From contig CACONH010000002.1 in the NCBI GenBank assembly GCA_902628495.1, positions 62,001 to 126,000 on the forward strand: a stretch of 64,000 nucleotides of DNA. Direction: 5' to 3'. This document shows, piece after piece, positions 2,359 through 28,430 of the stretch (position 1 is the first letter of the stretch; the number at the start of each line of letters is the position of its first letter). The translations under genes were made by a program, and so were the position numbers. The notes under the pieces were generated by a model. It made no database searches and was not told the DNA's origin. It saw only the letters and a program-made list of their open reading frames with translations. Origin of the DNA: an uncultured Pelagibacteraceae bacterium. GTDB taxonomy: Bacteria; Pseudomonadota; Alphaproteobacteria; Pelagibacterales; Pelagibacteraceae.

Positions 2359-3294
2359 ATGTCCGAAAAAATATTAGCAATACAAGGTAACTCTTTTAAA
2401 AATCTCAACATTATCACAGACACAACATATTTTTTAGCTCTTGAGGCACAAAGAAGAAATTATAAGATTTACTGGTATGAGACAAAAGATATAAATTTTG
2501 TAAATTCTAAATTGGTTGCTAATATCTGCCATATTAGATTTTTAGAAAATAATAAAACTTATTTTAAAATTATATCAAAAAAGAAGTTTGAATTAAAAAA
2601 ATCAAAAGTTATATTTATAAGGCAAAATCCACCTTTCAATATGGATTATGTAACTTCTACATTATTCTTAGATACTATAAAAAATAGCGTAAAGATAGTT
2701 AATGACCCAACCTCTATCAGAAATATATCTGAAAAATTATTTTCAATTAATTTTAAAAAGCTTATGCCACCAACAATTTTCACTAAAAACTTAGATGAGA
2801 TTAAAAAATTTATAAAAATTAACAAAAAAATTGTACTAAAGCCTATACATGGATATGCAGGAAAAGACATAATTTATATTAACGGCATAACAAATATAAA
2901 AAAGATTAGTCAATATTTAAAAAAAATTGGTCATGTTATGGCCCAAAAATATTTACCAGGAATTAAATACGGCGATAAAAGAGTTTTTATAATTAACGGG
3001 AAGATTAAAGGTGCAATAAGCCGTGTACCTTCCTCTAATTCAATTTTATCAAATTTATCCCAAGGGGGCAAAGCTGTAAAAACTACTCTTAGCAATAAAG
3101 AGATTAACGTTTCAAATCAAGTAGCTAAAGTCTTAAAAAAAAATGGAATATTTTTTGCAGGTATAGATCTAGTTTCTGGATATTTAATTGGTGATATAAA
3201 TGTAACATCACCAACAGGGCTTCCTCAATTTAAAGAATTAACAGGAGTTAATCTTGCAAAAAATTATTGGGACGAGCTAGAAAAATTAAAATAA
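2359..3294 (+). CDS. gshB: glutathione synthase
   Basis: This enzyme adds glycine to gamma-glutamylcysteine with ATP to give glutathione. The 311-aa protein has the ATP-grasp plan of Gsh[19 protein letters not shown] (ATP-binding Lys and glycine-rich loop), [28 protein letters not shown], and a metal/product end [17 protein letters not shown] matching the family INVTSPTxxxE signature. It follows gshA by 2 bp. Its last 9 bp overlap the convergent fhs gene, leaving no room for a conventional terminator. Residues and context agree, so confidence is high. Confidence 0.92.
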
Positions 3295-4974
3295 ACCTTC
3301 TACCTGACCCTTTTTATTTAATTTAATTTTGTCTGCAGCAGGAATCTTCGGCAACCCTGGCATAGTCATAATTGATCCACATATCACAACAATAAATTCT
3401 GCTCCAGAAGATAATCTTACGTCTCTAATTGGTATTTCATGATTTGTTGGTGCACCCTTTAATTTTGGATCAGTAGAAAAACTATATTGAGTTTTTGCTA
3501 CACAAACTGGAAAATTTTTGAACCCATTATTTTCAAATGTCTTTAATTTTTGTTTAATCTCTTCAGTTGCTGTAATTTTGTCAGCTCTATATATTTCTTT
3601 TGCAACAATCTCAATTTTTTCCCACAAGCTTTTATTATCGTTATACAAGAGTTTAAATTTTTGTTTTTTCGAATTATTACACACTCGTACAACTTTTTTT
3701 GCTAAATCAACTGTTCCTGCTCCACCTTCTTCCCAGTGTTTACAATTACTAACTTCAACATTTAAATTTTTACAAAAATCTATTATTGTTTGTATTTCTT
3801 TTTTAGTATCTAAAACGAAATGATTAATTGCAACTATAGGCTCTATGCCAAATTTTTTAGTATTATTTATATGTCTGTCTAAATTTGATAATCCTTTTTT
3901 TAAAGCATCAATATTCTCAGTTTTTAAATTTTCTTTTTCTACACCGCCATGCATTTTTAAAGCACGAACTGTGGCAACTATTACAATACAACTTGGTTTT
4001 ATATTTGCTTTTCTACATTTAATATCCAAAAATTTTTCAGCACCAAGGTCAGCGCCGAAACCTGCCTCAGTTACTACGTATTTAGATAACTTTAAAGCTG
4101 ACTTAGTTGCTATCACTGAATTACATCCGTGAGCAATATTAGCAAACGGTCCTCCATGAATTATAGCCGGATTATGCTCTAGACTTTGGGTAACATTTGG
4201 CCTAATTGCTTCTTTGAGAAGTACTGTCATTGGACCTTGAGCATTTAAGTGTTTTGCATAAACTGGATTATTATTTTTGTCATATGCAATTGTAATGTTT
4301 CCAATTCTTTTTTCTAAATCAGACAAATCATTAGATAAACAGAAAATTGCCATCACTTCAGATGCCACAGTAATGTCAAAACCATCTTCTCTAGCAAAAT
4401 CCTTAGCTACTCCTTTAGTATTTATATCTATAAATCTTAAAGCCCGATCGTTCATATCTACAACTCTTTTCCAAACAATTTTTTTCTCATCAATGTTAAG
4501 TTTATTCCCCCAATAAATATGATTATCGATTAAAGCTGACAAAAGATTATGAGCAGATGTAATAGCATGAAAGTCGCCAGTAAAGTGAAGATTTATTTGT
4601 TCCATAGGAACTACCTGTGCATTACCACCTCCAGCCGCACCTCCCTTCATTCCAAAAGAGGGGCCAAGACTAGGTTCTCTCAAACATACAATAGATTTTT
4701 TTCCAATTTTATTTAATCCATCATTTAGACCAACAGATGTTGTAGTTTTGCCTTCCCCAGCTGGGGTTGGAGTGATTGCTGTGACGAGAATAAGATGACC
4801 ATCCTTTTTTTTTTTAAGTTTATCCAAGAATTCAAAATTTATTTTAGCTATGTGTCTTCCCATTGGACTAAAAGCTTTTGGGTTATCAGGAACATTTATT
4901 TTTTTTAAAATTTTTGAGATTGGTTTTAATTTACAATTTCTTGCAATCTCTATATCAGATTTAAATTTTTTCAT
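3286..4974 (-). CDS. fhs: formate-tetrahydrofolate ligase
   Basis: Fhs interconverts formate + THF + ATP and 10-formyl-THF + ADP + Pi. In methylated-compound oxidisers it can run toward formate and ATP, closing C1 oxidation. The 562-aa protein has normal family length and the P-loop-like [13 protein letters not shown] at about residues 68-80, the glycine-rich [13 protein letters not shown], and [20 protein letters not shown]. The window also encodes two GcvT-fold proteins and a MetF-like reductase that feed the folate C1 pool, so a role in C1 oxidation is plausible. It converges on gshB with a 9 bp overlap. Confidence 0.96.
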
Positions 4975-12557: not shown

Positions 12558-12711
12558 AGAAAACAGCATCAACGATTATACTGAAGAGTCATTAGATGAT
12601 TTATGTGAAGAATGTAAAAAAAGCGATGAAAGTGTTGCCCATAACTTAATACTTACAGGCTTTAAAATTTGTAAATCTTGTAGAGTATCTAAAACAATAT
12701 TCCCAATTTAA
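12550..12711 (+). CDS. 53-aa zinc-ribbon-like small protein
   Basis: An ATG at 12550 opens a 53-codon frame inside the end of the DUF3726 gene (8 bp overlap). The protein has two CxxC pairs, LCEEC at residues 18-22 and CKSC at 41-44, about 18 residues apart, the spacing of a small zinc ribbon. The middle is hydrophobic (NLILTGFKI). The overlap and the paired cysteines argue that it is a real last gene of the M19 operon. Its stop overlaps the convergent Yip1 gene by 4 bp. It may serve as a metal-binding accessory subunit. Confidence 0.62.
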   Translation: MTKENSINDYTEESLDDLCEECKKSDESVAHNLILTGFKICKSCRVSKTIFPI

Positions 12712-13253
12712 GTTACATTACTTATTGGCAAGGTATCCATTCTACTCATTACAAAAGACACTGATAATATAGCTAATATCAAAAATGATAAAAATATTAT
12801 TCCAAAAGATTTAAAATTAGATTTTAATTGCAGAACTTCCCTTGTAGAAATTATAAGAGATGCAAAAATCCATAGTTGTGTTAGAAATATAATTGGCATT
12901 ACCATAGTTGGCGTAATAGCAAAAAATCTTAGTAGGCCAGGGGCATGCGCGAAACCCACTGCTATTAGTATTTTTTTAAATGGAACTTTAGAATCTCTGT
13001 CTGGAAAAAGTTTTACTCCAATTACAAATATAAATATTGCCCAAACGAACCAAGTAAAAATAGCAGTGATCGCAGATAAACCGATCGATGTTTTGTAAAA
13101 TACGTTTGCAGCTATAGCCCCGGCAACTCCATCCAAAACCATAACTAGTGCCGCAAAATATATCGCTGCTTCACCAAAACTCTTACTCTCTCTATAAAGA
13201 TTTTTATCGAGTTTGATTGATCTAAATACGATACTTAAAAATTGTGCAAACAT
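12708..13253 (-). CDS. Yip1-domain integral membrane protein
   Basis: This 181-aa protein has about five hydrophobic segments and the layout of bacterial YIP1-family membrane proteins. It has an N-terminal amphipathic part, FGEAAIYFAALVMVLDGVAGAI, a WFVWAIFIFVIGVKLFP helix, and the conserved IAVGFAHAPGLLRFFA block. Function in bacteria is unknown. Its ATG overlaps the stop of a 33-aa membrane peptide gene upstream (TAATG), indicating coupled translation. Confidence 0.72.
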   Translation of the reverse strand: MFAQFLSIVFRSIKLDKNLYRESKSFGEAAIYFAALVMVLDGVAGAIAANVFYKTSIGLSAITAIFTWFVWAIFIFVIGVKLFPDRDSKVPFKKILIAVGFAHAPGLLRFFAITPTMVMPIIFLTQLWIFASLIISTREVLQLKSNFKSFGIIFLSFLILAILSVSFVMSRMDTLPISNVT

Positions 13254-13354
13254 TACTTTTTATTTTTTTTTTCAATAAATGAAACTATTAAAGGAAATAT
13301 TAACAAAATAATAGCAATAATAATACTTGCAATTATTATGACAATTTTTGTCAT
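13253..13354 (-). CDS. 33-aa single-pass membrane peptide coupled to the Yip1 gene
   Basis: On the minus strand an ATG at 13354 opens a 33-codon frame whose TAA shares one base with the ATG of the Yip1 gene. The product is MTK, a hydrophobic helix of about 24 residues rich in Ile, then a Lys-rich tail (EKKNKK). The layout predicts one membrane span with the basic tail inside. The 1-base stop/start overlap is the main evidence for translation. It could be a leader for coupling or a subunit of the Yip1 protein; homology was not checked. Confidence 0.5.
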   Translation of the reverse strand: MTKIVIIIASIIIAIILLIFPLIVSFIEKKNKK

Positions 13355-13380
13355 AAAAACATTAAATAGCTTTTAACAAT

Positions 13381-14790
13381 CTACTTCGAAACTTCTCTAG
13401 TATTAGGATTGTAAGATTCTGTAAAAGGTATATCTACAACAACTGCATCAACAGGATTACTTCCTTTTTCACAATATTTTTTTGGTAAGTGAACTTTGAA
13501 TTTGTCACCCACATTACCTTTAGGAAATCCATTTTTGTTAATCGTTCCATCATATGGAACGTAACCCATTGCAATATTTGTACCTTTTTCTGGATGATAC
13601 CAAGGCGATGTAACAAAACCTACCGGGTTTTTTCCATCTTTTGATATTAGCCAAAAATCTGGAGCATACTCTTCAATTGGTTTTCCACCTAGTTCCATAC
13701 CGACTAATTGAAGTTTATAAGGTTTTTGTCCATTTAATAATTCTTTCTTCATATTTTCTAGAGATTCTTTACCAATGTAATCTCCCTTTTTAGCCCATTC
13801 ACCTTTTCCAGATAATGAAACTTGATAGCCTAAATTACATTGAAATGGATTATGTTCATTGTCCATATCCTGACCCCAAGATAAAATTCCAGCTTGAATT
13901 CTTCTGTGATGCGCAGGGGCGATAACCATTAACTTATGTTTTTTACCTGCTTTTAAAACTGCGTTCCACATATCTTCAGCATATAAAGTTGCGTCTCTTA
14001 AATATATTTCATAACCTGCTTCACCAGAAAATCCAGATTGAGAAATTACACAACTTCTTCCACCGACTTTAGCTTCAGCTAATCCATAAAAAGGCATATT
14101 ATCTAAATCAACTTGTTTACCAATTAAGTCATTCATCAAAGCTTTTGATTTTGGACCTTGGATTTGCACAGGACACGCATCTATTTCGTCTATCTCAACA
14201 TTAAATCTTTTATCTGCATTTACTCCTTGTAGATATAAACCTATATCACTATCTGATAAACTAAACCAAAACTCATCTTGTGAAATTCTTAATAATATTG
14301 GATCATTAAGAACTCCGCCTTTATAATTACAAAGAATTACATATCTAGCTCTCATCGGTGAAATTTTAGTTGCATCTCTTGTAATTACATAATCAGTAAA
14401 TTTTTCTGCATCAGGACCTTTAACTCTAATTTGTCTCTCAACTGCAACATTCCACATTGTAACGTGATTTTTAATTGCTTTATACTCAACCATCGCTCCA
14501 CCCTTTTCAGGTCTTACATATCCACGAGGATGATAAATTCTATTATAAACAGTTGCTCTCCAGCATCCTGCTTTCATTGATAGGTGCCAATACGGAGATT
14601 TTCTTACTCTTGTTGACATTAATAATTCTACTTTTGTTGGTCCGCTTTGTCTTAAATTATACGGAACATGCCTGTCCGATTGATCTACTTTTGTGTTATG
14701 AGAAACTTTTGAATAATCAACTTTTTCAATTATTCTGCTTGGTGATAATTTGCTTTTGGACTTTTTAGCTTTTTTTCTTTTTTTAGGCAT
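13381..14790 (-). CDS. GcvT-fold, DmdA-like folate-dependent methyltransferase/demethylase
   Basis: This 469-aa protein belongs to the aminomethyltransferase (GcvT) superfamily. From STRVRKSPYW onward it aligns by eye with SAR11 DmdA: VYN near the N-terminus, NHVTMWNVAVERQI, WFSLSDSDIG, IQGPKSKALM, SGFSGEAGYEIY. The GYExY residues are present. It differs from true DmdA (about 369 aa) by a roughly 50-residue Lys/Ser-rich N-terminal extension and by Phe where, as I recall, DmdA has Trp before the GYE block. I therefore do not call it DmdA. It overlaps the upstream MetF-like gene by 8 bp, consistent with moving a methyl group from a substrate to THF and oxidising it. The methyl donor is unknown. 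Confidence 0.78.
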   Translation of the reverse strand: MPKKRKKAKKSKSKLSPSRIIEKVDYSKVSHNTKVDQSDRHVPYNLRQSGPTKVELLMSTRVRKSPYWHLSMKAGCWRATVYNRIYHPRGYVRPEKGGAMVEYKAIKNHVTMWNVAVERQIRVKGPDAEKFTDYVITRDATKISPMRARYVILCNYKGGVLNDPILLRISQDEFWFSLSDSDIGLYLQGVNADKRFNVEIDEIDACPVQIQGPKSKALMNDLIGKQVDLDNMPFYGLAEAKVGGRSCVISQSGFSGEAGYEIYLRDATLYAEDMWNAVLKAGKKHKLMVIAPAHHRRIQAGILSWGQDMDNEHNPFQCNLGYQVSLSGKGEWAKKGDYIGKESLENMKKELLNGQKPYKLQLVGMELGGKPIEEYAPDFWLISKDGKNPVGFVTSPWYHPEKGTNIAMGYVPYDGTINKNGFPKGNVGDKFKVHLPKKYCEKGSNPVDAVVVDIPFTESYNPNTREVSK

Positions 14791-15511
14791 AGTTATTTTC
14801 CTTTAGCCAGTTGTTGGTTTCCTTAAGCCCACCAAATGTATAGATATGAAAATGTTTCGTATGCTCTTTTATTTTATCTACAAGATCATTTGGGTCTTTT
14901 GGTTTTAATAAATCAATTGCCTTACTAAAATTTGATTTAATAAAGTTAATAGAATTTTTTGCTCCTACAATATTAGCAAATTTAATTAAACTTGATATTT
15001 TCATAGGTCCAGTAATTCCAACATGAACTGGGACAGTCTGTTTAGAAATAAAGTCAATAATTGGCTCCGGCTGCATTAACCATTGGGTTACTATGTAGTC
15101 CGCGTAAGGCTTTTTATCAATCATAGCTTTTTCTAACACTTCGTCGGATATATCAGGACTCCCCTCTGGATGTCCAGCAATTCCTATCTTCATTTTCTCA
15201 AAATAACCAGTCTCCAAAAGCTGGAATGAACTATCAAATTTACCCATGGGCTCTCTTCCACCACCTATTACTAAAGCCTGTTTGACACCTCCATCTTTAC
15301 ACATATTTACATATTCTTTGAGTTGTGCCTCATCCGCCATCGACCTTGCAGGAAAATGGGGAACAGGGTTGAACCCTTTTTTAACCAAATTAATTGCTTG
15401 TTGAGCGGTTTCTCTAAAATCGCCACCTGGTAGCATTGTGATATAAACATCTTTTAGTGCTGGCAAGGTATCTAAATTTGAATTGGGTCCAATTTCTATA
15501 GAAAAATTCAT
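14783..15511 (-). CDS. methylenetetrahydrofolate reductase-like protein (short MetF)
   Basis: The 242-aa protein is a MetF-type TIM barrel: it begins NFSIEIGPN (the active-site Glu region), then VYITMLPGG, FNPVPHFPARSMADEAQL, QALVIGGGREPMG, KIGIAGHPEGSPD and YIVTQWLMQPEP, all expected in order. It is shorter than E. coli MetF (about 296 aa). MetF interconverts 5-methyl-THF and 5,10-methylene-THF with flavin. Its 8 bp overlap with the GcvT-like demethylase suggests that it oxidises methyl-THF made by its partner, rather than serving only methionine synthesis. It is the promoter-proximal gene of the pair. Confidence 0.85.
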   Translation of the reverse strand: MNFSIEIGPNSNLDTLPALKDVYITMLPGGDFRETAQQAINLVKKGFNPVPHFPARSMADEAQLKEYVNMCKDGGVKQALVIGGGREPMGKFDSSFQLLETGYFEKMKIGIAGHPEGSPDISDEVLEKAMIDKKPYADYIVTQWLMQPEPIIDFISKQTVPVHVGITGPMKISSLIKFANIVGAKNSINFIKSNFSKAIDLLKPKDPNDLVDKIKEHTKHFHIYTFGGLKETNNWLKENNYA

Positions 15512-15640
15512 TCGGCGATCATTATTTATTTTAAATTATCTGTCTATATAAATATTGAGGTCATAAGGTCAGATTTAGAGGCCCAATTTTACATATATAA
15601 ATGTTAAAATTTATCTATTATATAAGTCTAAAATTTACTT

Positions 15641-16054
15641 ATGAAAATAATACTAATAATGGGTCTTCCTGGAGCAGGCAAAACAACCTTGGCTGATGAA
15701 CTAGCACCCATGTTAAAGGCTAAAAGACTTAACGCAGATGAAGTTAGGAAGGCTGCAAATGACTGGGACTTTTCACCAGAGGGAAGAACTAGACAAGCAA
15801 AAAGAATGGCAGACTTTGCTTTAAAGTTAAAAGAAGAGGGTAATTTTGTTATTGCAGATTTTATTTGTCCAACACCAAAGGCAAGAAGTTTGTTTCCAGC
15901 AGATTATACAGTTTGGGTTGATACTATTCAAAAAGGTAGATTTGAAGACACTAATCAGATGTTCGTAAAACCTGAAAAATATGACTTCCATGTAACTTCA
16001 CAGGATGCTAAAAATTGGGCACCTAAAATATTTGAACAATTAAATAAACTGTAA
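15641..16054 (+). CDS. CysC-like P-loop kinase
   Basis: This 137-aa cytoplasmic protein has Walker A GLPGAGKTT at residues 8-16, then LNADEVRK...WDFSPEGRTRQAKRMADFA and ADFICP. These correspond to the LDGDNVR, R..NIRR and TAFISP blocks of adenylylsulfate kinase. It is shorter than CysC (about 200 aa). No CysD, CysN or CysH is beside it, so assimilatory sulfate reduction is not indicated; the acceptor may be another nucleotide or a surface sugar. It overlaps the next gene by one base (TAATG) and lies in a cluster with a surface protein and a nucleotidyltransferase. Confidence 0.72.
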   Translation: MKIILIMGLPGAGKTTLADELAPMLKAKRLNADEVRKAANDWDFSPEGRTRQAKRMADFALKLKEEGNFVIADFICPTPKARSLFPADYTVWVDTIQKGRFEDTNQMFVKPEKYDFHVTSQDAKNWAPKIFEQLNKL

Positions 16055-18345
16055 TGTCTCTCATAAGAAAAATAATCTTATTTATTTTTTTTACATTGTT
16101 TCCGTTTTCACATTCATTTGCAAATGTGGTTACATTAGTGGATGAATTTCAAATCAGTAATGGTCTTGAGGACACCACAGTTAGAGCCGGACTTGAAACT
16201 AACACTGATAGAGAAGTTGGAGGTGTGCAGTTTAACGACGATGGTACAAAAATGTTTGTAAGATTTTTTAGAGACGAAGATAGCGGCGAAGGTAGATTGG
16301 ATTATAGTTTCATTGATGAATATAACCTATCCATTCCTTTTGATGCCTCTTCAGGTACTTACGCAGGAGACGATGAAAGGTGTGAATTAGATCATGATAC
16401 CGGTATAGCCCACGAACCATTCGACTTACATTTTAGCAGCGATGGAATGAAATTTTATGTAGCTAACCGTTATGTTTTAGCTAATGGCCAGGACGAAAAT
16501 TTTGTTTATAGATTTGACCTTACTGCACCTTACGATGTTTCTACTTGTTCTTATGCACAAAGAACTGAAAATTTAGGAAACTTTATAAATGGAAGTCAAT
16601 CTGGAGATTCACCAAATGCTCTTGGAAATAAACACAACCGTCTTCAAGGTGTTTCACTTAGTAATGATGGAAAAAAAATGTTTACTCTTATGAGTTATGG
16701 TCATGTTTTAGAATATGATTTATCCACTGCATTTGATGTTACAACTTTTTCGCTTAATGTTAACGGTGGAATGGACTTGTCTTCAAATACAAGCAATCCT
16801 CAGTCGATAGAATTTAATGCAGATGGCACAAGAATTTTTATTGCTAATCACGGTTCAACTACAATAACGCAAGTTTCTCTAGATGCACCTTTTGATACAT
16901 CCTCATTTACCGTTGATGGCGAAGTAAGCTTTGTTAATACAACTCTTGGAAATCTTAGACAGATAAGAACATTAACATTCAGTAACAGCGGTTTAATAAT
17001 GTATATTGGAAACGATGATTCTAATCCTGCTACTCATCCTGTTGATAAAGTTTTTGAATATAATTTAGCTTGTCCTTTTGATATTATTGGTGGTAATTGT
17101 CCTTCGATTACAGAGAATAGTGACCGAACTGGAATGGCAGAGGCTCAGGTAGAACTCGCAAATAGAACAATAGATTTATCAACAAAGTCTGTTCTAAATA
17201 GATTAAAGTGGATTAGAAGAAATAAAGATAAGCAAAATTTATCTAATCAAAATATAAAGTTAAACTTTTCTAATACCTTAATATCTTCATTATCAGAATT
17301 ACCCATATCATCTTTTAAAAAGGTATCTACAACTAAAAATAATGTCAAATCAAACAAGAATTATTTTTATTGGAGCGAAGGGGGTATTTCCATCGGAAGA
17401 ACAGGTGATACTAGTATTTCATCCAATAAAGAAATAAATGTAAAATCCTTAACTTTTGGTTTTGATAAATTTAAGGATGATTATGGCATAGAGGGAATTG
17501 CCTTTAGGTTTGGCGGTGATGGCGTTGACGTTGGAAATGCTGGTAGCAAACTAGATTCTAATACATACAATTTCCTATACTATAATACGACACCTATTGA
17601 GGATGATACAAAATTTATAGATAAAGTTTTTGGTATTGGAAAAATAAAATCGGATATAATTACTATTGTTGATGGTAGAAAAATAACTGCAGATAGGATA
17701 GGAAATCAAGCGTTTGGAACCTTTAAACTTAAAAATGAAATTAAGAAAAATAATTTAATTCTAATTCCTTCTGCACAATTTGATTTTGGTCATACAATTT
17801 TGCGTGGTTACGCAGAAACTGGAGTTGGAGCTATAGATGTAGAAGACCAACATGTAAGAACTAAGAATTTGAGAGCAACTATTGCAGTATATGAAGATCT
17901 ATCAAATGATAAATATGAGTTTAAGCGACACGGTAAATTAGAATATTTAGCTGATGTTGATCGTTCATCTGACTTTAAATATAGATATGTTTCTGACGGA
18001 GATACTTCTTTTTCTGAAAAATTACATACAGGAGCGTTACATAATATTAATGCTGAGGTTGGTTTGGATATAGTTTTTTCAAATAATTATAGTATTTTTT
18101 TGATTTATGAAAGAAACCAAGCAATAGATTATGGGCATACTGATAATTTGTACATTGCTTTAGGATATTTACCATATGAAGGAGCCGAGTATGCTTTCAC
18201 AATTAATGGATCAGAAAATCTTTTATCAAATTTAGAATTTAAAAAAAATGTTAATGGATTAAATCTAAGCTTTAATGTTAAAGATGATATCACAAATTTA
18301 GGAGATAACAGAGAAGCTAATATTGTATTAAATAAAGTCTTTTAA
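16054..18345 (+). CDS. autotransporter-like outer-membrane protein with beta-propeller passenger
   Basis: The 763-aa protein has a signal peptide (residues 1-24, ending SHSFA). Residues 25-345 hold repeated blades of the form FNDDGTKMFV/FSSDGMKFYV/LSNDGKKMFT/FNADGTRIFI, each followed by an EYDLS..FDVST-like strand, indicating a beta-propeller. A Lys/Asn-rich linker follows to about 430. The last 300 residues alternate like an autotransporter beta-barrel and end in a terminal Phe (VLNKVF), as outer-membrane proteins do. It is probably displayed on the cell surface; ligand unknown. It starts in the stop codon of the CysC-like gene. Surface proteins of this kind are often strain-variable. Confidence 0.72.
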   Translation: MSLIRKIILFIFFTLFPFSHSFANVVTLVDEFQISNGLEDTTVRAGLETNTDREVGGVQFNDDGTKMFVRFFRDEDSGEGRLDYSFIDEYNLSIPFDASSGTYAGDDERCELDHDTGIAHEPFDLHFSSDGMKFYVANRYVLANGQDENFVYRFDLTAPYDVSTCSYAQRTENLGNFINGSQSGDSPNALGNKHNRLQGVSLSNDGKKMFTLMSYGHVLEYDLSTAFDVTTFSLNVNGGMDLSSNTSNPQSIEFNADGTRIFIANHGSTTITQVSLDAPFDTSSFTVDGEVSFVNTTLGNLRQIRTLTFSNSGLIMYIGNDDSNPATHPVDKVFEYNLACPFDIIGGNCPSITENSDRTGMAEAQVELANRTIDLSTKSVLNRLKWIRRNKDKQNLSNQNIKLNFSNTLISSLSELPISSFKKVSTTKNNVKSNKNYFYWSEGGISIGRTGDTSISSNKEINVKSLTFGFDKFKDDYGIEGIAFRFGGDGVDVGNAGSKLDSNTYNFLYYNTTPIEDDTKFIDKVFGIGKIKSDIITIVDGRKITADRIGNQAFGTFKLKNEIKKNNLILIPSAQFDFGHTILRGYAETGVGAIDVEDQHVRTKNLRATIAVYEDLSNDKYEFKRHGKLEYLADVDRSSDFKYRYVSDGDTSFSEKLHTGALHNINAEVGLDIVFSNNYSIFLIYERNQAIDYGHTDNLYIALGYLPYEGAEYAFTINGSENLLSNLEFKKNVNGLNLSFNVKDDITNLGDNREANIVLNKVF

Positions 18346-22672: not shown

Positions 22673-25105
22673 GTGAAATCTAAATCTAAAGTAGTTGTTG
22701 TTGGTGGTGGCGTAGTAGGAGTTAGCGCACTATATCATTTAGCAAAAAAAGGTTGGTCGGATGTTGTTCTAGTCGAAAGAAAAGAACTAACTTCAGGATC
22801 GACTTGGCATGCAGCAGGATTATTACCTTTATTCAACATGAGCTATTCGGTTGGTCAATTACATAAATACGCAGTTAACTTGTACGGTAAGTTAGAGGAA
22901 GAGACGGGAAAAAATGTAGGCTTCAGTAGAGTATCAAATATTAGACTTGCAAACAATAAAGATAGAATGGATGAATATTTTCAGTACGCAGGTGTTGCAC
23001 AAACAATTGGTGTTGATGTAAAATTTTTAACTCCAGATCAAGTAAAAGAAATTTGGCCACTATGTAATACATCTGATTTAGTTGGGGCTATTCAACATCC
23101 TGAAGATGGTTACATTCAACCTGCAGATTTAACACAAGCTTTGGCTACAGGAGCAAGAAACAGAGGTGCAGAAATTTATAGAAACACAACAGTTGTAGGA
23201 ATTAAACAAACTAAGAATGGTTGGGTTGTTGAAACAGATAAAGGATCAATAGAGTGTGAGCATGTAATTTCTTGTTCAGGAAATTTTGCAAGACAAACTG
23301 GTAAAATGGTAGGATTAGATATTCCTGTTATACCAGTAGAACACCAATACATCGTTACAGAACCTCATCCAGAAATTCAAAAAAGAAAAAAAGAAGGTTT
23401 ACCTGAAATGGGAGTTTTAAGAGACAGTGACAGCAGATGGTATATGAGAGAAGAAGCAGGGGGATTAATTTTAGGTCCATATGAAGATGGAGCTCCAGCA
23501 TGTTATGTTAATGGACCATCTAAAGAGTCTGAATATGAATTATTTCAAGAGGATTTAGATAGACTAGCACCTCATATAGAGGGGGCGATACACAGAGTTC
23601 CAGCTTTTGGTGAAGTTGGAGTCAAGAAAGTTTATAATGGTGCAATTTGTTATACGCCTGATGGAAATCCAATTGTTGGTCCAGCTTGGGGATTAAAAAA
23701 TTTTTGGATTAATGAGGGACATAGTTTTGGAATAACTGCAGCTGGAGGAGCAGGTTGGCAATTAGCCGAGTGGATTGTTGATGGAGAACCTACAATTGAT
23801 ATGCTTGGTGTTGAACCAAGAAGATATGGAGATTATTGCTCTAAATCATATTTGATTAAAAAGAATGAAGAGGCTTATAGCCATGTTTTTATAAATCACT
23901 TCCCAGATGAAGAAAGACCAGCAGCAAGACCTCTAAGAACAGCTCCGTGTTACGATAGAATGAAAAATTTAGGTGCTGTGTTTGGTCAAAAATTTGGTTG
24001 GGAGAGACCGAATTTTTTTGCAACAGATGGAATGGAACAAAAAGACGATTGGTCGTTTAGAAGATCTAAATGGTTCAGTGCTATAGAAAAAGAATGCAAG
24101 AACGTAAGAGAAAATGTTGGCCTTCTAGATATGACGGCTTTTGCAAAATGTAGAATAAAAGGACCTGGTGCTGAGGCTTTTTTAGATAAGCTTGTAGCAA
24201 ATAAATTACCAAAAAAAATTGGAAGAATTAACCTTTGCCACGCACTAAATACAAAAGGTGGAGTTCACTCAGAATTTACAATCATGAGAGAGTCTGAAAC
24301 AAGTTTTTATCTAGTTTCTGCTGGTGCTTTTCAAAGATTAGACCACGATTGGATTTTAAAATGGATGCCAAATGATGGATCTGTTCAATTTGAAAATTTA
24401 ACAAATAGCAATGGTGTTCTTGTTGTTGCAGGGCCAAAAGCCAGAGAACTAATGCAAAAAGTTTCAAAAGATGATTTTTCAAATGAAAACTTTAAATGGT
24501 TAAGCTCTAAAATGGTTGATGTAGGTTACGCACCTGTAAATGCAATGAGGGTGAATTTTGTCGGAGAGCTTGGATGGGAACTTCATCATCCAATTGAATA
24601 TCAAAATCATATTTTTGATAAATTAATGGAAGCTGGAAAAGATTTAGGAATTAAACCTTTTGGTATCAGAGCTATGAATAGTTTAAGAGTTGAAAAATCA
24701 TACAAACTGGTTGGTACAGAATTATCTATCGAATACTCGCCTTATGAAAGTGGTTTAGATAGATTCATTCATCCAAATAAAGGAAGCTTTATAGGTTTAG
24801 AAGCTTTAAACAAGTGGAGAGAAAAGGGATTTAATAATAAATTAGTTACATTAGAAATTCATAATCCAAAAGATGCAGATGTTCTTGGAAACAATCCTAT
24901 TTATGAAAATGGAAGCGTTATTGGAAGAGCAACAGGTGGTGACTACGGTTTTAGATTAGGTAAATCAATTGCACTAGGCATGGTTAAACCAGAGCTTGGT
25001 AATGTAGGACAAAAATTAAAAGTTGAAATTTTAGGTGAAAAATATGATGCAACCATTCTGGAAGAAAGTCCTTATGATCCAGAAAATAAATTATTGAGAG
25101 CATGA
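22673..25105 (+). CDS. FAD-dependent dimethylglycine/sarcosine dehydrogenase-type demethylase
   Basis: This 810-aa protein joins an N-terminal FAD domain ([18 protein letters not shown] at about residue 6) with a C-terminal GcvT folate domain from about residue 430. STWHAAGLL holds the His that typically binds FAD covalently in dimethylglycine and sarcosine dehydrogenases. These remove N-methyl groups and pass the C1 unit to THF and electrons to ETF. The start is a GTG; no in-frame ATG lies upstream. It overlaps etfB by 4 bp (ATGA), a strong sign that the ETF made next is its acceptor. Dimethylglycine versus sarcosine cannot be separated by eye. Confidence 0.9.
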
Positions 25106-25854
25106 TGAAAATATTAGTAGCTGTAAAAAGAGTAATTGATTATAACGTCCAAGTTAGAGTAAAGGATGATGGAACTGGTGTTGTAACTGATAATGTCAAG
25201 ATGTCTACTAATCCACCAGATGATAATGCAATCGAAGAAGCGGTAAAGATAAAAGAGTCAGGTAAAGCTAAAGAGGTTGTGGCTATTACAATCGGAGATG
25301 ATAAAGCACAAGAAACAGTTAGAAAAGCTCTTGCTGTAGGAGCGGACAGAGGAATTCATGTTAAAGTTGATGGAATAGTTGAACCATTAGCTGTTTCTAA
25401 AATATTAAAAAAGATAGTCGAAAAAGAAAATCCAGATTTAGTTTTTATGGGAAAACAAGCAATTGATGATGATTGTAATCAAACAGGTCAAATGTTAGCT
25501 GCAATATTAAATTGGCCCCAAGCAACTTTTGCTTCAAAAATTGAGGTTAAGGAAAAATCTTTAGAGGTTACTAGAGAAATTGATGAAGGTTTAGAAACAA
25601 TTGAAGTAAACATACCTGCGATTGTAACCTGCGATCTAAGACTTAATGAACCAAGATACGCATCTTTACCAAATATTATGAAGGCAAAGAAAAAACCTTT
25701 AGAACAATTAAATGCATCTGATTTAGGGGTTGATACTAAAGCGAGAATCGAGCAAATTAAAGTAGAAGAACCGCCAAAAAGAAAAGCTGGTATAAAAGTC
25801 GCAAGTGTATCAGAATTGGTTCAAAAATTAAAAAATGAGGCTAAAGTAATATAA
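25102..25854 (+). CDS. etfB: electron transfer flavoprotein beta subunit
   Basis: EtfB (250 aa) pairs with EtfA to carry electrons from flavin dehydrogenases to the quinone pool. It begins [19 protein letters not shown] and contains [47 protein letters not shown] and [23 protein letters not shown], all family hallmarks including the ETF-beta signature. Two ATG codons (25102 and 25105) stand in tandem; either could start. It overlaps the upstream dehydrogenase by 4 bp and etfA by 1 bp. Confidence 0.96.
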
Positions 25855-26807
25855 TGTCAGTTTTATTAATAGCGGAACATAATAACACAGATCTTAGACC
25901 ATTTACTTTTAATGCAGCAACAGCCGCATCAAAAATAAATGCAGATTTACATGTTTTAGTTCTTGGTAACAAATCAGATAGTGTTGCAAAAGCTGCTAGC
26001 GAAATTCCATTGGTAAAAAAAGTGATCCATGTTGATAATGAAATATTTGATAATTTTACTGCTGAAAATTACACATCTACGATTTTAAAGCATGTAGATA
26101 GTTATTCACACATTGTTTGTTCAGCAAATACATTTGGAAAAAATTTAATGCCTAGAGTGGCAGCATTATTAGATACTTCACAAGTTAGCGATATAGTAAA
26201 TGTTATTTCTGAAGATACTTTTTTAAGACCAATTTATGCAGGTAATGCATTTGCAACTGTTAAAAGCACTGACAAAAAAAAATGTGTTACAATTAGACCA
26301 ACATCTTTTGATCCAGCACCTTCAACCGGGGGATCAGCAGAAATAGTTAAATCTGAGCCTGGAGATAAGTTTGAGAGTTCAAAATTTGTTAAGAGAGAGG
26401 AAATAAAATCTGATAGACCAGAATTAGGTACTGCAAGAGTTGTTATTTCTGGTGGAAGAGGAATGCAAAATTCAGATAACTTTAAATTGATTTCTGCAAT
26501 CGCAGATAAACTTAACGCAGCTATAGGTGCTTCAAGAGCAGCTGTTGATGCAGGTTATATCACTAACGATCATCAAGTAGGCCAAACTGGTAAAGTTGTT
26601 GTGCCTGATTTGTATATTGCAGTTGGAATATCTGGAGCGATCCAACACTTAGCCGGAATGAAAGAAAGTAAAGTAATCGTTGCAATCAACAAAGATGGAG
26701 AAGCTCCAATTTTTAGTGTTGCAGATTATGGATTAGAAGCAGATTTATTTGAAGCATTACCTCAATTTTTAGAAGAATTAAATAAACTCAATAGTATTCA
26801 AAAGTAA
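25854..26807 (+). CDS. etfA: electron transfer flavoprotein alpha subunit
   Basis: EtfA (317 aa) holds the FAD of ETF. The C-terminal FAD domain is clear: [60 protein letters not shown] and [19 protein letters not shown]. The N-terminal domain starts [13 protein letters not shown]. It overlaps etfB by one base (TAATG) and is 3 bp before the ETF-quinone oxidoreductase gene. Confidence 0.96.
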
Positions 26808-26810
26808 TTC

Positions 26811-28430
26811 ATGACTAGAGAAGTTATGGAATATGATGTTGTTATTGTTGGTGGAGGACCATCAGGACTAGCAACAGCAATAAAACTAAAACAATTAAAT
26901 TCTGAAATTAATGTTTGTGTTTTAGAAAAGGGAGCAGAAATTGGTTCCCATATTTTATCAGGAAATGTTTTTGAAACAAGAGCTTTGGATGAATTAATAC
27001 CTAACTGGAAAGAATTAAATTCACCAATAAAAACAAAAGTTACAAAAGAAAAATTTTTATTTCTTGGAAAAACAAAATCAATAAGTTGGCCAACATGGCT
27101 ACTGCCTAAAGTTCAACAAAATCATAAAAATTATATTATAAGTCTTGCAAATTTGTGTAGATGGTTAGCTGAACAAGCAGAGGCATTAAGTGTGGAAATA
27201 TTCCCAGGCTTTCCAGCTTCTGATATTTTGTATCATGAAGACGGATCTGTAAAAGGTGTTGTCACTCAAGACATGGGTTTAGATAAAAACGGAGAAAAAA
27301 AAGATAGCTACGAGCCTGGAATGGAGCTTCATGCAAAAGTGACTGTATTTGCCGAAGGCTGTAGAGGACACTTAGGAAAAAATTTAATTAAAAAATTTGA
27401 TTTAAGTAAAGGAAAAAATCCACAGCAGTACGGTATCGGTTTTAAAGAAATTTGGAAGGTAGATGAAAAAAATCATGAAGAAGGATTAGTTATGCACACC
27501 GCTGGTTGGCCATTAGACAATAATACATACGGTGGAAGTTTTGTTTATCATGCTGAAAACAAAGAAGTATATTTAGGATATGTAATTGGTTTAGATTATC
27601 AAAATCCTCATCTATCTCCATTTGATGAATTTCAAAGATTTAAAACACATCCTGCTATTTCAAAAATGCTTAATGGAGGTAAAAGAATTTCGTACGGTGC
27701 AAGAGCTTTAATTGAAGGGGGTATTCAAAGTTTACCAAGAATGTTTATGCCTGGCGCTTTATTAATTGGTTGTGATGCTGGTACTTTAAATATGCCTAAA
27801 ATAAAAGGTTCACACACAGCAATGAAAAGTGGTTTAATAGCAGCAGAAACAATAGTTGAGCATCTAAAAGATAAAAAAGATTTATCAATTTATGAGGAAA
27901 AATTCAAAAAAAGCTGGGCTTATGAAGAATTACATGCAGCAAGAAATGTTAAACCAAGCTTTAGTTGGGGTTTAATCTTAGGCATTATTTTTACCGGAAT
28001 TGATCAAATATTATTTAGAGGAAAGCTACCATTCACATTGAAACATAAGCATGCAGATCATGAAACTTTAAAACCAGCAAATAAAATGCCAGTTATAGAG
28101 TACCCAAAACCAGATAACATCTTAACTTTTGACAAAACTAGCTCTGTATATTTAACTGGAACAAATCACGAGGACAATCAGCCAGTCCATCTCCAGTTAA
28201 AAGATAAAGAATTACCAATAAAATATACTTTAGAAAAATACGATGAACCTGCTCAAAGATATTGTCCAGCAGGTGTTTACGAAGTTCAAAATGAAAACGG
28301 TTCACCGAAATTTGTAATAAATTCTCAGAATTGCATACATTGCAAGACATGTGATATCAAAGAACCATCCCAAAATATCACTTGGGTAACACCTGAAGGA
28401 AGTGGTGGTCCAAGATACGGGAATATGTAA
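26811..28430 (+). CDS. electron transfer flavoprotein-ubiquinone oxidoreductase
   Basis: This 539-aa protein passes electrons from reduced ETF to ubiquinone at the inner membrane. It starts with a Rossmann FAD motif, DVVIVGGGPSGLATAIKL. It has the family block GALLIGCDAGTLNMPKIKGSHTAMKSG and ends with the 4Fe-4S ligand region CIHCKTCDIKEPSQNITWVTPEGSGGPRYGNM-like (Cys in CIHCKTC plus an earlier Cys in RYCPAGVY). Length is normal. It completes the dehydrogenase-ETF-quinone route in one operon. It ends 1 bp before the convergent DUF2237 gene. Confidence 0.96.
   Translation: MTREVMEYDVVIVGGGPSGLATAIKLKQLNSEINVCVLEKGAEIGSHILSGNVFETRALDELIPNWKELNSPIKTKVTKEKFLFLGKTKSISWPTWLLPKVQQNHKNYIISLANLCRWLAEQAEALSVEIFPGFPASDILYHEDGSVKGVVTQDMGLDKNGEKKDSYEPGMELHAKVTVFAEGCRGHLGKNLIKKFDLSKGKNPQQYGIGFKEIWKVDEKNHEEGLVMHTAGWPLDNNTYGGSFVYHAENKEVYLGYVIGLDYQNPHLSPFDEFQRFKTHPAISKMLNGGKRISYGARALIEGGIQSLPRMFMPGALLIGCDAGTLNMPKIKGSHTAMKSGLIAAETIVEHLKDKKDLSIYEEKFKKSWAYEELHAARNVKPSFSWGLILGIIFTGIDQILFRGKLPFTLKHKHADHETLKPANKMPVIEYPKPDNILTFDKTSSVYLTGTNHEDNQPVHLQLKDKELPIKYTLEKYDEPAQRYCPAGVYEVQNENGSPKFVINSQNCIHCKTCDIKEPSQNITWVTPEGSGGPRYGNM

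Follow-up and report, generated by a model that had tools for sequence, protein, structure and literature searches.

We analyzed a gene pair in a window of 64,000 nucleotides from a SAR11 genome (genome G000, contig C2, positions 62001 to 126000; assembly of 17 contigs totaling 1.00 Mb, with 91.7% completeness). The pair consists of two open reading frames (ORFs) on the minus strand, where the initial annotation had rightly placed them: a gene for a short MetF of 242 residues (14783-15511), which lies upstream, and a gene for a DmdA-like protein of 469 residues (13381-14790), which overlaps it by 8 bases. We propose that the DmdA-like protein is a tetrahydrofolate (THF)-dependent glycine betaine (GBT) demethylase and that MetF would convert 5-methyl-THF to 5,10-methylene-THF.

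The DmdA-like protein contains the folate-binding domain PF01571 (140.5 bits, cut-off 25.6), and its C-terminal barrel PF08669 is slightly under the cut-off (24.2 vs 25.9 bits). Among its NCBIfam matches, it stays under every specific cut-off, i.e., those of DmdA (NF009133, 239.6 vs 410 bits), GcvT (TIGR00528, 134.4 vs 235.85 bits; NF001567, 155.4 vs 300 bits), and the aromatic O-demethylases LigM/DesA (31.7 vs 580 bits and 44.4 vs 800 bits). The best solved relative by sequence is the DmdA structure 3tfh (E 1.3e-45, residues 56-368). An AlphaFold model with a mean confidence (pLDDT) of 88.7, built from a 64-sequence alignment (a 17-sequence model was weaker, 67.9), is also closest to 3tfh (Foldseek E 7.5e-40; VIA Z 45.3, rmsd 1.9 Å, 369 residues, 29% identity) and next closest to GcvT 1wos (Z 42.8). 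LigM, although a THF-dependent demethylase of the same superfamily as DesA and the DmdA-like protein, is more remote (Z 25.1). With DmdA, the protein shares the fold, the R63/P66/YN motifs, and the residues aligned with Asp163, Glu261, and Tyr263; it differs in having only 26-31% identity, an additional N-terminal motif, and a Phe at position 254 (codon 14029-14031, minus strand) where DmdA has Trp. This Phe is kept in 55 of 56 family rows, while all four DmdA rows have Trp, and in 62 alignment columns at least 90% of the family has one residue that is replaced by a different one in all four DmdA rows. The significance of the Trp/Phe site rests on a 2020 PeerJ study (PMC7487153), the accessible part of which describes W171 as a key residue for interaction with dimethylsulfoniopropionate (DMSP); by alignment, we mapped W171 to W197 of the 3tfh chain. 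In an 82-row tree of a quick kind, with a single short GcvT row (166 residues) and long outgroup branches, 26 DmdA rows form one group (SH-aLRT 100) and 38 family rows form a separate group (94), the support of which rises to 100 for 37 rows without the outlier L069. By these criteria, the protein is assigned to neither DmdA nor GcvT but to a clade of its own. A true DmdA is encoded elsewhere in the genome (contig C1, 246766-247869; 556.9 bits, cut-off 410). The initial annotation had described a folate-dependent demethylase that resembles DmdA, diverges from it near the substrate site, and is coupled to MetF; the sequence comparisons support this description well, and the tree, in which the protein groups neither inside DmdA nor with plain GcvT, and the presence of a separate dmdA gene agree with it.

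The same annotation had pointed to an extra basic N terminus of about 50 residues. The extension is real, as the alignment with 3tfh starts at residue 51 of the model, and consists of two parts. Residues 1-34 (14689-14790, minus strand) form a lysine-rich part with 13 Lys and Arg residues, which has low model confidence (mean pLDDT 47-50 for residues 1-30), and it varies within SAR11, with three Lys and Arg in 17 residues in locus L070 and 17 in 39 residues in L073. By contrast, residues 35-50 (14641-14688, minus strand) comprise the motif VDQSDRxVPxNLRQSG, which recurs in a 17-row alignment of the family, in L069 with its second half only, and is not present in DmdA; the block means of pLDDT for residues 31-50 are 71-73. 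Because its length and charge change among SAR11 genomes, the lysine-rich tail is a variable SAR11 feature ahead of a conserved family motif rather than a mark of function.

The genes around the pair fit the demethylation of GBT. Eight kb from the pair, on the plus strand, lie genes for a dimethylglycine dehydrogenase (DMGDH) of 810 residues with the Pfam domains DAO and GCV_T (22673-25105), two subunits of an electron transfer flavoprotein (ETF), which is the probable electron acceptor of DMGDH, i.e., the beta subunit as judged by gene order (25102-25854; PF01012) and the alpha subunit (25854-26807; PF00766), and an ETF-ubiquinone oxidoreductase (26811-28430; PF05187, PF21162). Over residues 2-799, the DMGDH aligns with its rat and human counterparts (E 5e-193 to 2e-192); it also matches, more weakly, the dimethylglycine oxidase of Arthrobacter (E 5e-113). 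The ETF cluster adjoins DMGDH also in L054, L070, and L073. On the opposite side, again at 8 kb, the minus strand encodes formate-THF ligase (Fhs; 3286-4974; NF010030, 884 bits, cut-off 652), which acts late in THF-linked methyl oxidation. A second genome of the same genus, G026, encodes a DmdA that is letter-identical over 368 residues to 3tfh, which is from Ca. P. ubique, and holds this pair as well, again overlapping by 8 bases (84% identity for the DmdA-like protein and 78% for MetF) about 5.4 kb from a DMGDH that is 89% identical to that of the window. Because this genome with the 3tfh-identical DmdA holds the overlapping pair, we match the window pair to SAR11_1265/1264, and we judge this match to be firm though indirect. 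In the accessible part of the paper from 2011 (PMC3160333), the tag SAR11_1264 denotes metF, and SAR11_1265 denotes an aminomethyltransferase for which no substrate is named.

The family to which the DmdA-like protein belongs is widespread. In the taxonomic family of the window, which we take to be Pelagibacteraceae because of G026, 116 of 197 genomes have a match at 1e-60, or 113 if G105, G116, and G122, in which the best match is a 41% paralogue, are excluded. In the class, 19 of 385 alphaproteobacterial genomes (hereafter, the class set) carry a member at 1e-75, with identities of 49-81% outside this taxonomic family, and a scan of species genomes gave at least 593 relatives. Family members are mostly 60-75% identical, and the best 80 of these relatives come from Alphaproteobacteria, Gammaproteobacteria (Halomonas, Marinobacter, SAR86), Actinomycetota (Arthrobacter, Nocardioides, Brevibacterium, Pseudonocardia), Gemmatimonadota, Acidobacteriota, and others. 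Moreover, the 16 plasmid records matching at 1e-80 are all from haloarchaea, with 57-66% identity to L063. The range of the family, therefore, differs from that of DmdA, which the accessible literature calls most prevalent in Alphaproteobacteria, with the demethylation pathway restricted to them, and the family also differs from DmdA in its linkage to DMGDH and MetF.

This linkage was scored by tblastn with length thresholds in up to 10 kb on each side of the best 80 relatives, which are no random sample. Nineteen of these loci are nearly identical copies from HIMB59-like genomes, so each count is reported both for all loci and after their removal. Among all 80 loci, 56 have DMGDH, 42 MetF, 25 SoxB, 13 Fhs, and 66 at least one of the four; among the 61 loci outside the HIMB59-like block, the corresponding counts are 37, 23, 8, 13, and 47. 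(A looser DMGDH count of 59/80 includes weak matches to the SoxA C terminus.) By contrast, 20 control loci around true dmdA genes of this class, scored in the same way, gave DMGDH in none, Fhs in one, and MetF in one, i.e., L174 (G412, contig C4), where the MetF adjoining DmdA is 46% identical to that of L067. In the HIMB59-like loci L055-L057, soxBDAG, dmgdh, metF, and the family gene form a single run. Outside the taxonomic family of the window, 16 loci of the class set include nine with DMGDH, four with MetF, and six with SoxB, and the four haloarchaeal plasmid regions examined contain a methylene-THF reductase (MTHFR) in four, a DMGDH-like gene in three, Fhs in two, and a BCCT transporter in one. 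A BCCT seed matched 6/80 family loci and 0/20 DmdA controls, while Pfam scans of some neighbors in Halomonas, Aidingimonas, and actinobacterial loci found no transporter with a clear substrate.

Co-occurrence across genomes points in the same direction. First, in the class set, in which DMGDH was scored at 1e-150 (133/385), all 19 family carriers but only 114 of 366 non-carriers have DMGDH (Fisher p 7e-10, a value that ignores shared descent). Second, among the 133 DMGDH genomes, PF06253, the family of MttB/MtgB homologues scored at E ≤1e-150, is present in one of 19 carriers, as a full-length match, and in 76 of 114 non-carriers (p 3.5e-7, likewise ignoring shared descent); all 77 PF06253-positive genomes are DMGDH-positive, and no PF06253 protein was found in the genome of the window. 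Third, 23 family-negative genomes hand-picked for the best DMGDH orthologues (≥60% identity over most of the length) all have PF06253, at ≤0.5 kb from DMGDH in 10 and at ≤5.5 kb in 16; left out of these 23 were G483 and the partial matches G395, G451, G506, and G549, and among these five, the full table shows PF06253 in G395, G451, and G483 but not in G506 or G549. Fourth, the family gene is within 10 kb of DMGDH in 13/19 carriers (10 by coordinates and G226, G453, and G530 via L055-L057). Because the family and PF06253 nearly exclude each other beside the same DMGDH, one place in the pathway appears to be filled by either the family or an MttB/MtgB homologue; a caveat is that 38 DMGDH-positive genomes have neither. 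Finally, the family is present in 27 of 60 Pelagibacteraceae genomes, and exactly those 27 have DMGDH, the two genes being 0.8-14.9 kb apart in 18 and on different contigs in the other nine.

The short MetF narrowly misses the PF02219 cut-off (22.8 vs 24 bits). Its only solved relative found is the MTHFR 7xg9 (E 5.9e-35), which we take to be the MetF of Sphingobium SYK-6, and all eight aligned MetF copies keep the Glu of the N-terminal F(S/T)xE motif, presumably the counterpart of the catalytic Glu28 of Escherichia coli MetF. The operon MetF is the one PF02219 match in the assembly, and as it scores low, another divergent MetF could be missed. No protein of the assembly matches PF02574, which covers Bhmt, MmuM, and the homocysteine module of MetH; therefore, this genome has no MetH. 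The accessible part of Mausz 2025 (PMC12478193) likewise describes MetE and MetH as absent from SAR11. Because of the single PF02219 match, the lack of PF02574, and the lack of MetE and MetH in SAR11, a biosynthetic role of the operon MetF in methionine formation is unlikely, and we infer that the oxidative direction is the most likely one.

Altogether, we consider it likely that the DmdA-like protein is a THF-dependent, cobalamin-independent demethylase with GBT as its main donor. The protein has the DmdA/GcvT fold with residues shared with DmdA, falls into a separate clade, is linked to the same partners across phyla, has a matched presence with DMGDH, and is nearly exclusive with MttB/MtgB homologues; because of the fold, the shared residues, and this context, we infer GBT as the donor and THF as the acceptor. 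In the proposed pathway, the DmdA-like protein would transfer a methyl group from GBT to THF without cobalamin or oxygen, giving dimethylglycine and 5-methyl-THF, and MetF from the same operon would oxidize the latter to 5,10-methylene-THF; its further oxidation would fall to FolD, Fhs, and formate dehydrogenase, as in the pathway outlined in the accessible part of PMC3160333. Dimethylglycine would pass to the ETF-linked DMGDH encoded 8 kb away, and the sarcosine formed would be converted by sarcosine oxidase, with glycine as the end product. The initial annotation had proposed a demethylase of a methylated donor but had named no substrate; the first part stands, and context, co-occurrence, and the replacement by MttB/MtgB homologues now narrow the choice of donor, pointing to GBT.

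Several observations weigh against this assignment. Fourteen of the 61 loci outside the HIMB59-like block lack DMGDH, MetF, SoxB, and Fhs; eight of these are under 15 kb because of contig ends and L145 is cut on one side, but five (L087, L130, L132, L144, and L151) are whole. In the Aidingimonas locus L109 (1698-13647), the pair lies between genes for xanthine dehydrogenase, amidohydrolase, and adenosine deaminase. In 6/19 carriers, DMGDH is far off or on another contig, with the two best DMGDH matches per genome scored. G494 holds both the family and PF06253, and G441 has a partial PF06253 frame. The PF06253 and DMGDH thresholds also take in proteins for other substrates, and the class-level tests ignore shared descent. 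Because DmdA also agrees with DMGDH in 54/60 Pelagibacteraceae genomes, the match between the family and DMGDH is in part attributable to lifestyle and descent. Moreover, the accessible part of the 2011 paper (PMC3160333) postulates a role in GBT use for a different aminomethyltransferase, SAR11_1303, encoded near GBT transporter genes. Lastly, since Bhmt is expressed, it could contribute to GBT use in genomes that have it.

The alternative that fares best is that the protein demethylates another quaternary ammonium or sulfonium osmolyte, such as carnitine, another amino-acid betaine, or a homarine-like compound, with the neighboring dehydrogenase serving the N-methyl products. DMGDH-like enzymes act on several substrates, SoxB is found in only 25/80 loci, and related DmdA-like/DMGDH-like pairs occur in L192-L194, all of which would suit such a donor. 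However, the DMGDH partner matches its mitochondrial counterpart over residues 2-799, the HIMB59-like clusters join the DMGDH and SoxBDAG steps, and the same DMGDH orthologue lies beside PF06253 in 16/23 of the chosen family-negative genomes, with Mtg demethylating GBT in Ruegeria; we regard this alternative as unlikely. A second DMSP demethylase, for which speak the nearest solved fold and the presence of DmdA in 9/19 carriers vs 22/114 non-carriers among DMGDH-positive genomes (p 0.016), is improbable given 239.6 bits against a cut-off of 410, the separate clade, the Trp to Phe replacement at the DMSP-linked site, a DmdA already present in the genome, and a family that reaches Arthrobacter, Nocardioides, and haloarchaea. 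We find it still more improbable that the protein is a GcvT paralogue or a helper of DMGDH in ordinary one-carbon metabolism, lacking its own methylated substrate: DMGDH and SoxA do have a related C-terminal folate domain, but the protein is under the GcvT cut-offs and in a separate clade, the DMGDH partner has its own folate domain, and the coupling to MetF would imply methyl- rather than methylene-THF. The second methyl step of DMSP breakdown, demethylation of methylmercaptopropionate, for which the accessible part of PMC3160333 argued speculatively from closeness to DmdA, an abundance similar to that of dmdA, and the adjoining metF, is highly improbable, as the linkage goes to DMGDH/SoxB/Fhs and 10/19 class-set carriers lack a DmdA over the cut-off. 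In addition, thioethers donate methyl groups less readily than onium compounds do, which also speaks against methylmercaptopropionate.

Three other candidates were discarded. A LigM-like aromatic demethylase, suggested by length and the metF neighbor, is ruled out by the scores. Purine N-demethylation, suggested by L109 and by a purine-type permease gene beside the family gene in L064, was rejected; a xanthine dehydrogenase seed matched 1/80 family loci (L109 itself) and a permease seed 1/20 class loci (L064 itself). Demethylation of methylated arsenic in SAR11 was likewise rejected, the 2019 mBio paper containing neither "metF" nor "GcvT".

If GBT is the donor, the protein can be set beside three known systems. 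Like DmdA, it is proposed to carry out a redox-neutral methyl transfer to THF by one folate enzyme. The Mtg system of Ruegeria pomeroyi (MtgB of PF06253, MtgC, and MtgD) is proposed to catalyze the same overall reaction, from GBT and THF to dimethylglycine and 5-methyl-THF, has a MetF-type enzyme (MetF2) downstream, and includes PF06253 genes that adjoin DMGDH; however, it is a multi-protein cobalamin system rather than a single folate enzyme, and both occur together in only 1/19 carriers. The Mtg system also has a different fold. The family, thus, probably resembles DmdA in its mode of action and Mtg in its substrate, and the tests made place it in neither. Mutants have shown that MtgC and MtgD are needed for growth of Ruegeria on GBT, with MtgB tied to this B12-dependent route by proteomics, and the accessible part of that 2025 PNAS paper (PMC12478193) reports no MtgC in Pelagibacteraceae. 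The family itself was known before as SAR11_1265 (2011), and the 2020 PeerJ study (PMC7487153) probably counted it with its "non-DmdA" homologues, in either case without a substrate. In its accessible part, the latter study describes one non-DmdA subclade with F at position 171 and threads it onto a DMGDH structure; this subclade probably includes the present family, its accessions being unmatched to the loci here. In the open PMC literature, we found no substrate assigned to the family beyond the speculation of 2011; bioRxiv and most subscription papers were outside this search, and priority is not excluded.

Bhmt (SAR11_1173) also performs a first step from GBT but passes the methyl group to methionine rather than to THF. 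The accessible part of PMC3160333 reports that HTCC1062 oxidizes the methyl groups of GBT and that Bhmt would pass the first of these to methionine; Bhmt is the predicted SAR11 route for GBT, credited without experimental proof in the accessible literature. However, PF02574 at E ≤1e-10 is lacking in 9/27 DMGDH-positive Pelagibacteraceae, including this genome and G051, which is 99% complete; among these nine, G049 and G056 have one candidate each that falls short of E 1e-10. In G051 and G000, no PF02574 protein was found, i.e., no Bhmt, MmuM, or MetH. Hence, the enzyme for the first GBT demethylation in SAR11, so far no more than predicted, seems to be missing in some members, and a 91.7% complete assembly has no bhmt-type gene though the rest of the GBT route is present. 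According to the accessible part of PMC5069961, bhmT, which is under a SAM-V riboswitch, is upregulated 33.8-fold in sulfur-limited growth and 29.2-fold in the control stationary phase; because the latter also raises bhmT, its expression cannot separate a role in methionine formation from a catabolic one. In the same source, transcript levels of SAR11_1264/1265 drop to 0.10-0.20 in the stationary phase whether or not sulfur is limiting, an observation that is uninformative about the substrate.

On balance, we favor the broader view that the family would constitute an unnamed class of cobalamin- and oxygen-independent GBT demethylases, each consisting of one THF methyltransferase with the DmdA/GcvT fold, that spans SAR11, HIMB59, halophilic Gammaproteobacteria, Actinomycetota, Gemmatimonadota, Acidobacteriota, and haloarchaea, that would fill the slot taken by the B12-dependent Mtg in Roseobacters, and that, in place of Bhmt, would feed the first methyl group of GBT into SAR11 energy metabolism. 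If so, GBT demethylation by the most numerous heterotrophs of the ocean would need no B12, surveys based on mtgC and bhmt would overlook a major route, and soil and hypersaline data could be read with this marker gene as well. Assigning GBT also makes the question from 2011 about the substrate of SAR11_1265 testable by one assay.

Related SAR11 paralogues (about 38-42% identity) retain Trp at the 254 site in all four aligned rows, and no match to this Trp-type paralogue was found in the genome of the window. In L193 (6574-7764, with EamA transporters nearby) and L194 (6.1 kb), it lies between DMGDH-like genes on both sides (43% and 33%), with which it forms another candidate demethylase pair. 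The paralogue is also found in L192 (6.9 kb), L190, L191, and L195-L197.

Within the window, an Rfam scan found no family at the gathering score, which speaks against riboswitch control, and scans of 13250-15700 gave 11 promoter matches vs a shuffle mean of 10.9 and one terminator vs 1.3. Next to the pair is a gene for a 181-residue protein without a Pfam match (12708-13253, minus strand), which adjoins the pair also in L070 and L073. The window also encodes a 763-residue protein with an autotransporter beta-domain (16054-18345, plus strand), which had no counterpart when other loci were clustered. On the haloarchaeal megaplasmids L154-L157, genes for MTHFR, FolD, Fhs, FolP, GlyA, formate dehydrogenase alpha, and pabB surround the family gene in differing sets. 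In L129 (9856-13890), MetF and Fhs are in one open frame beside the family gene, possibly encoding a fused methyl-THF-oxidizing enzyme, and in L138 and L146, as judged by position, MetF and Fhs lie within one long ORF at the same place.

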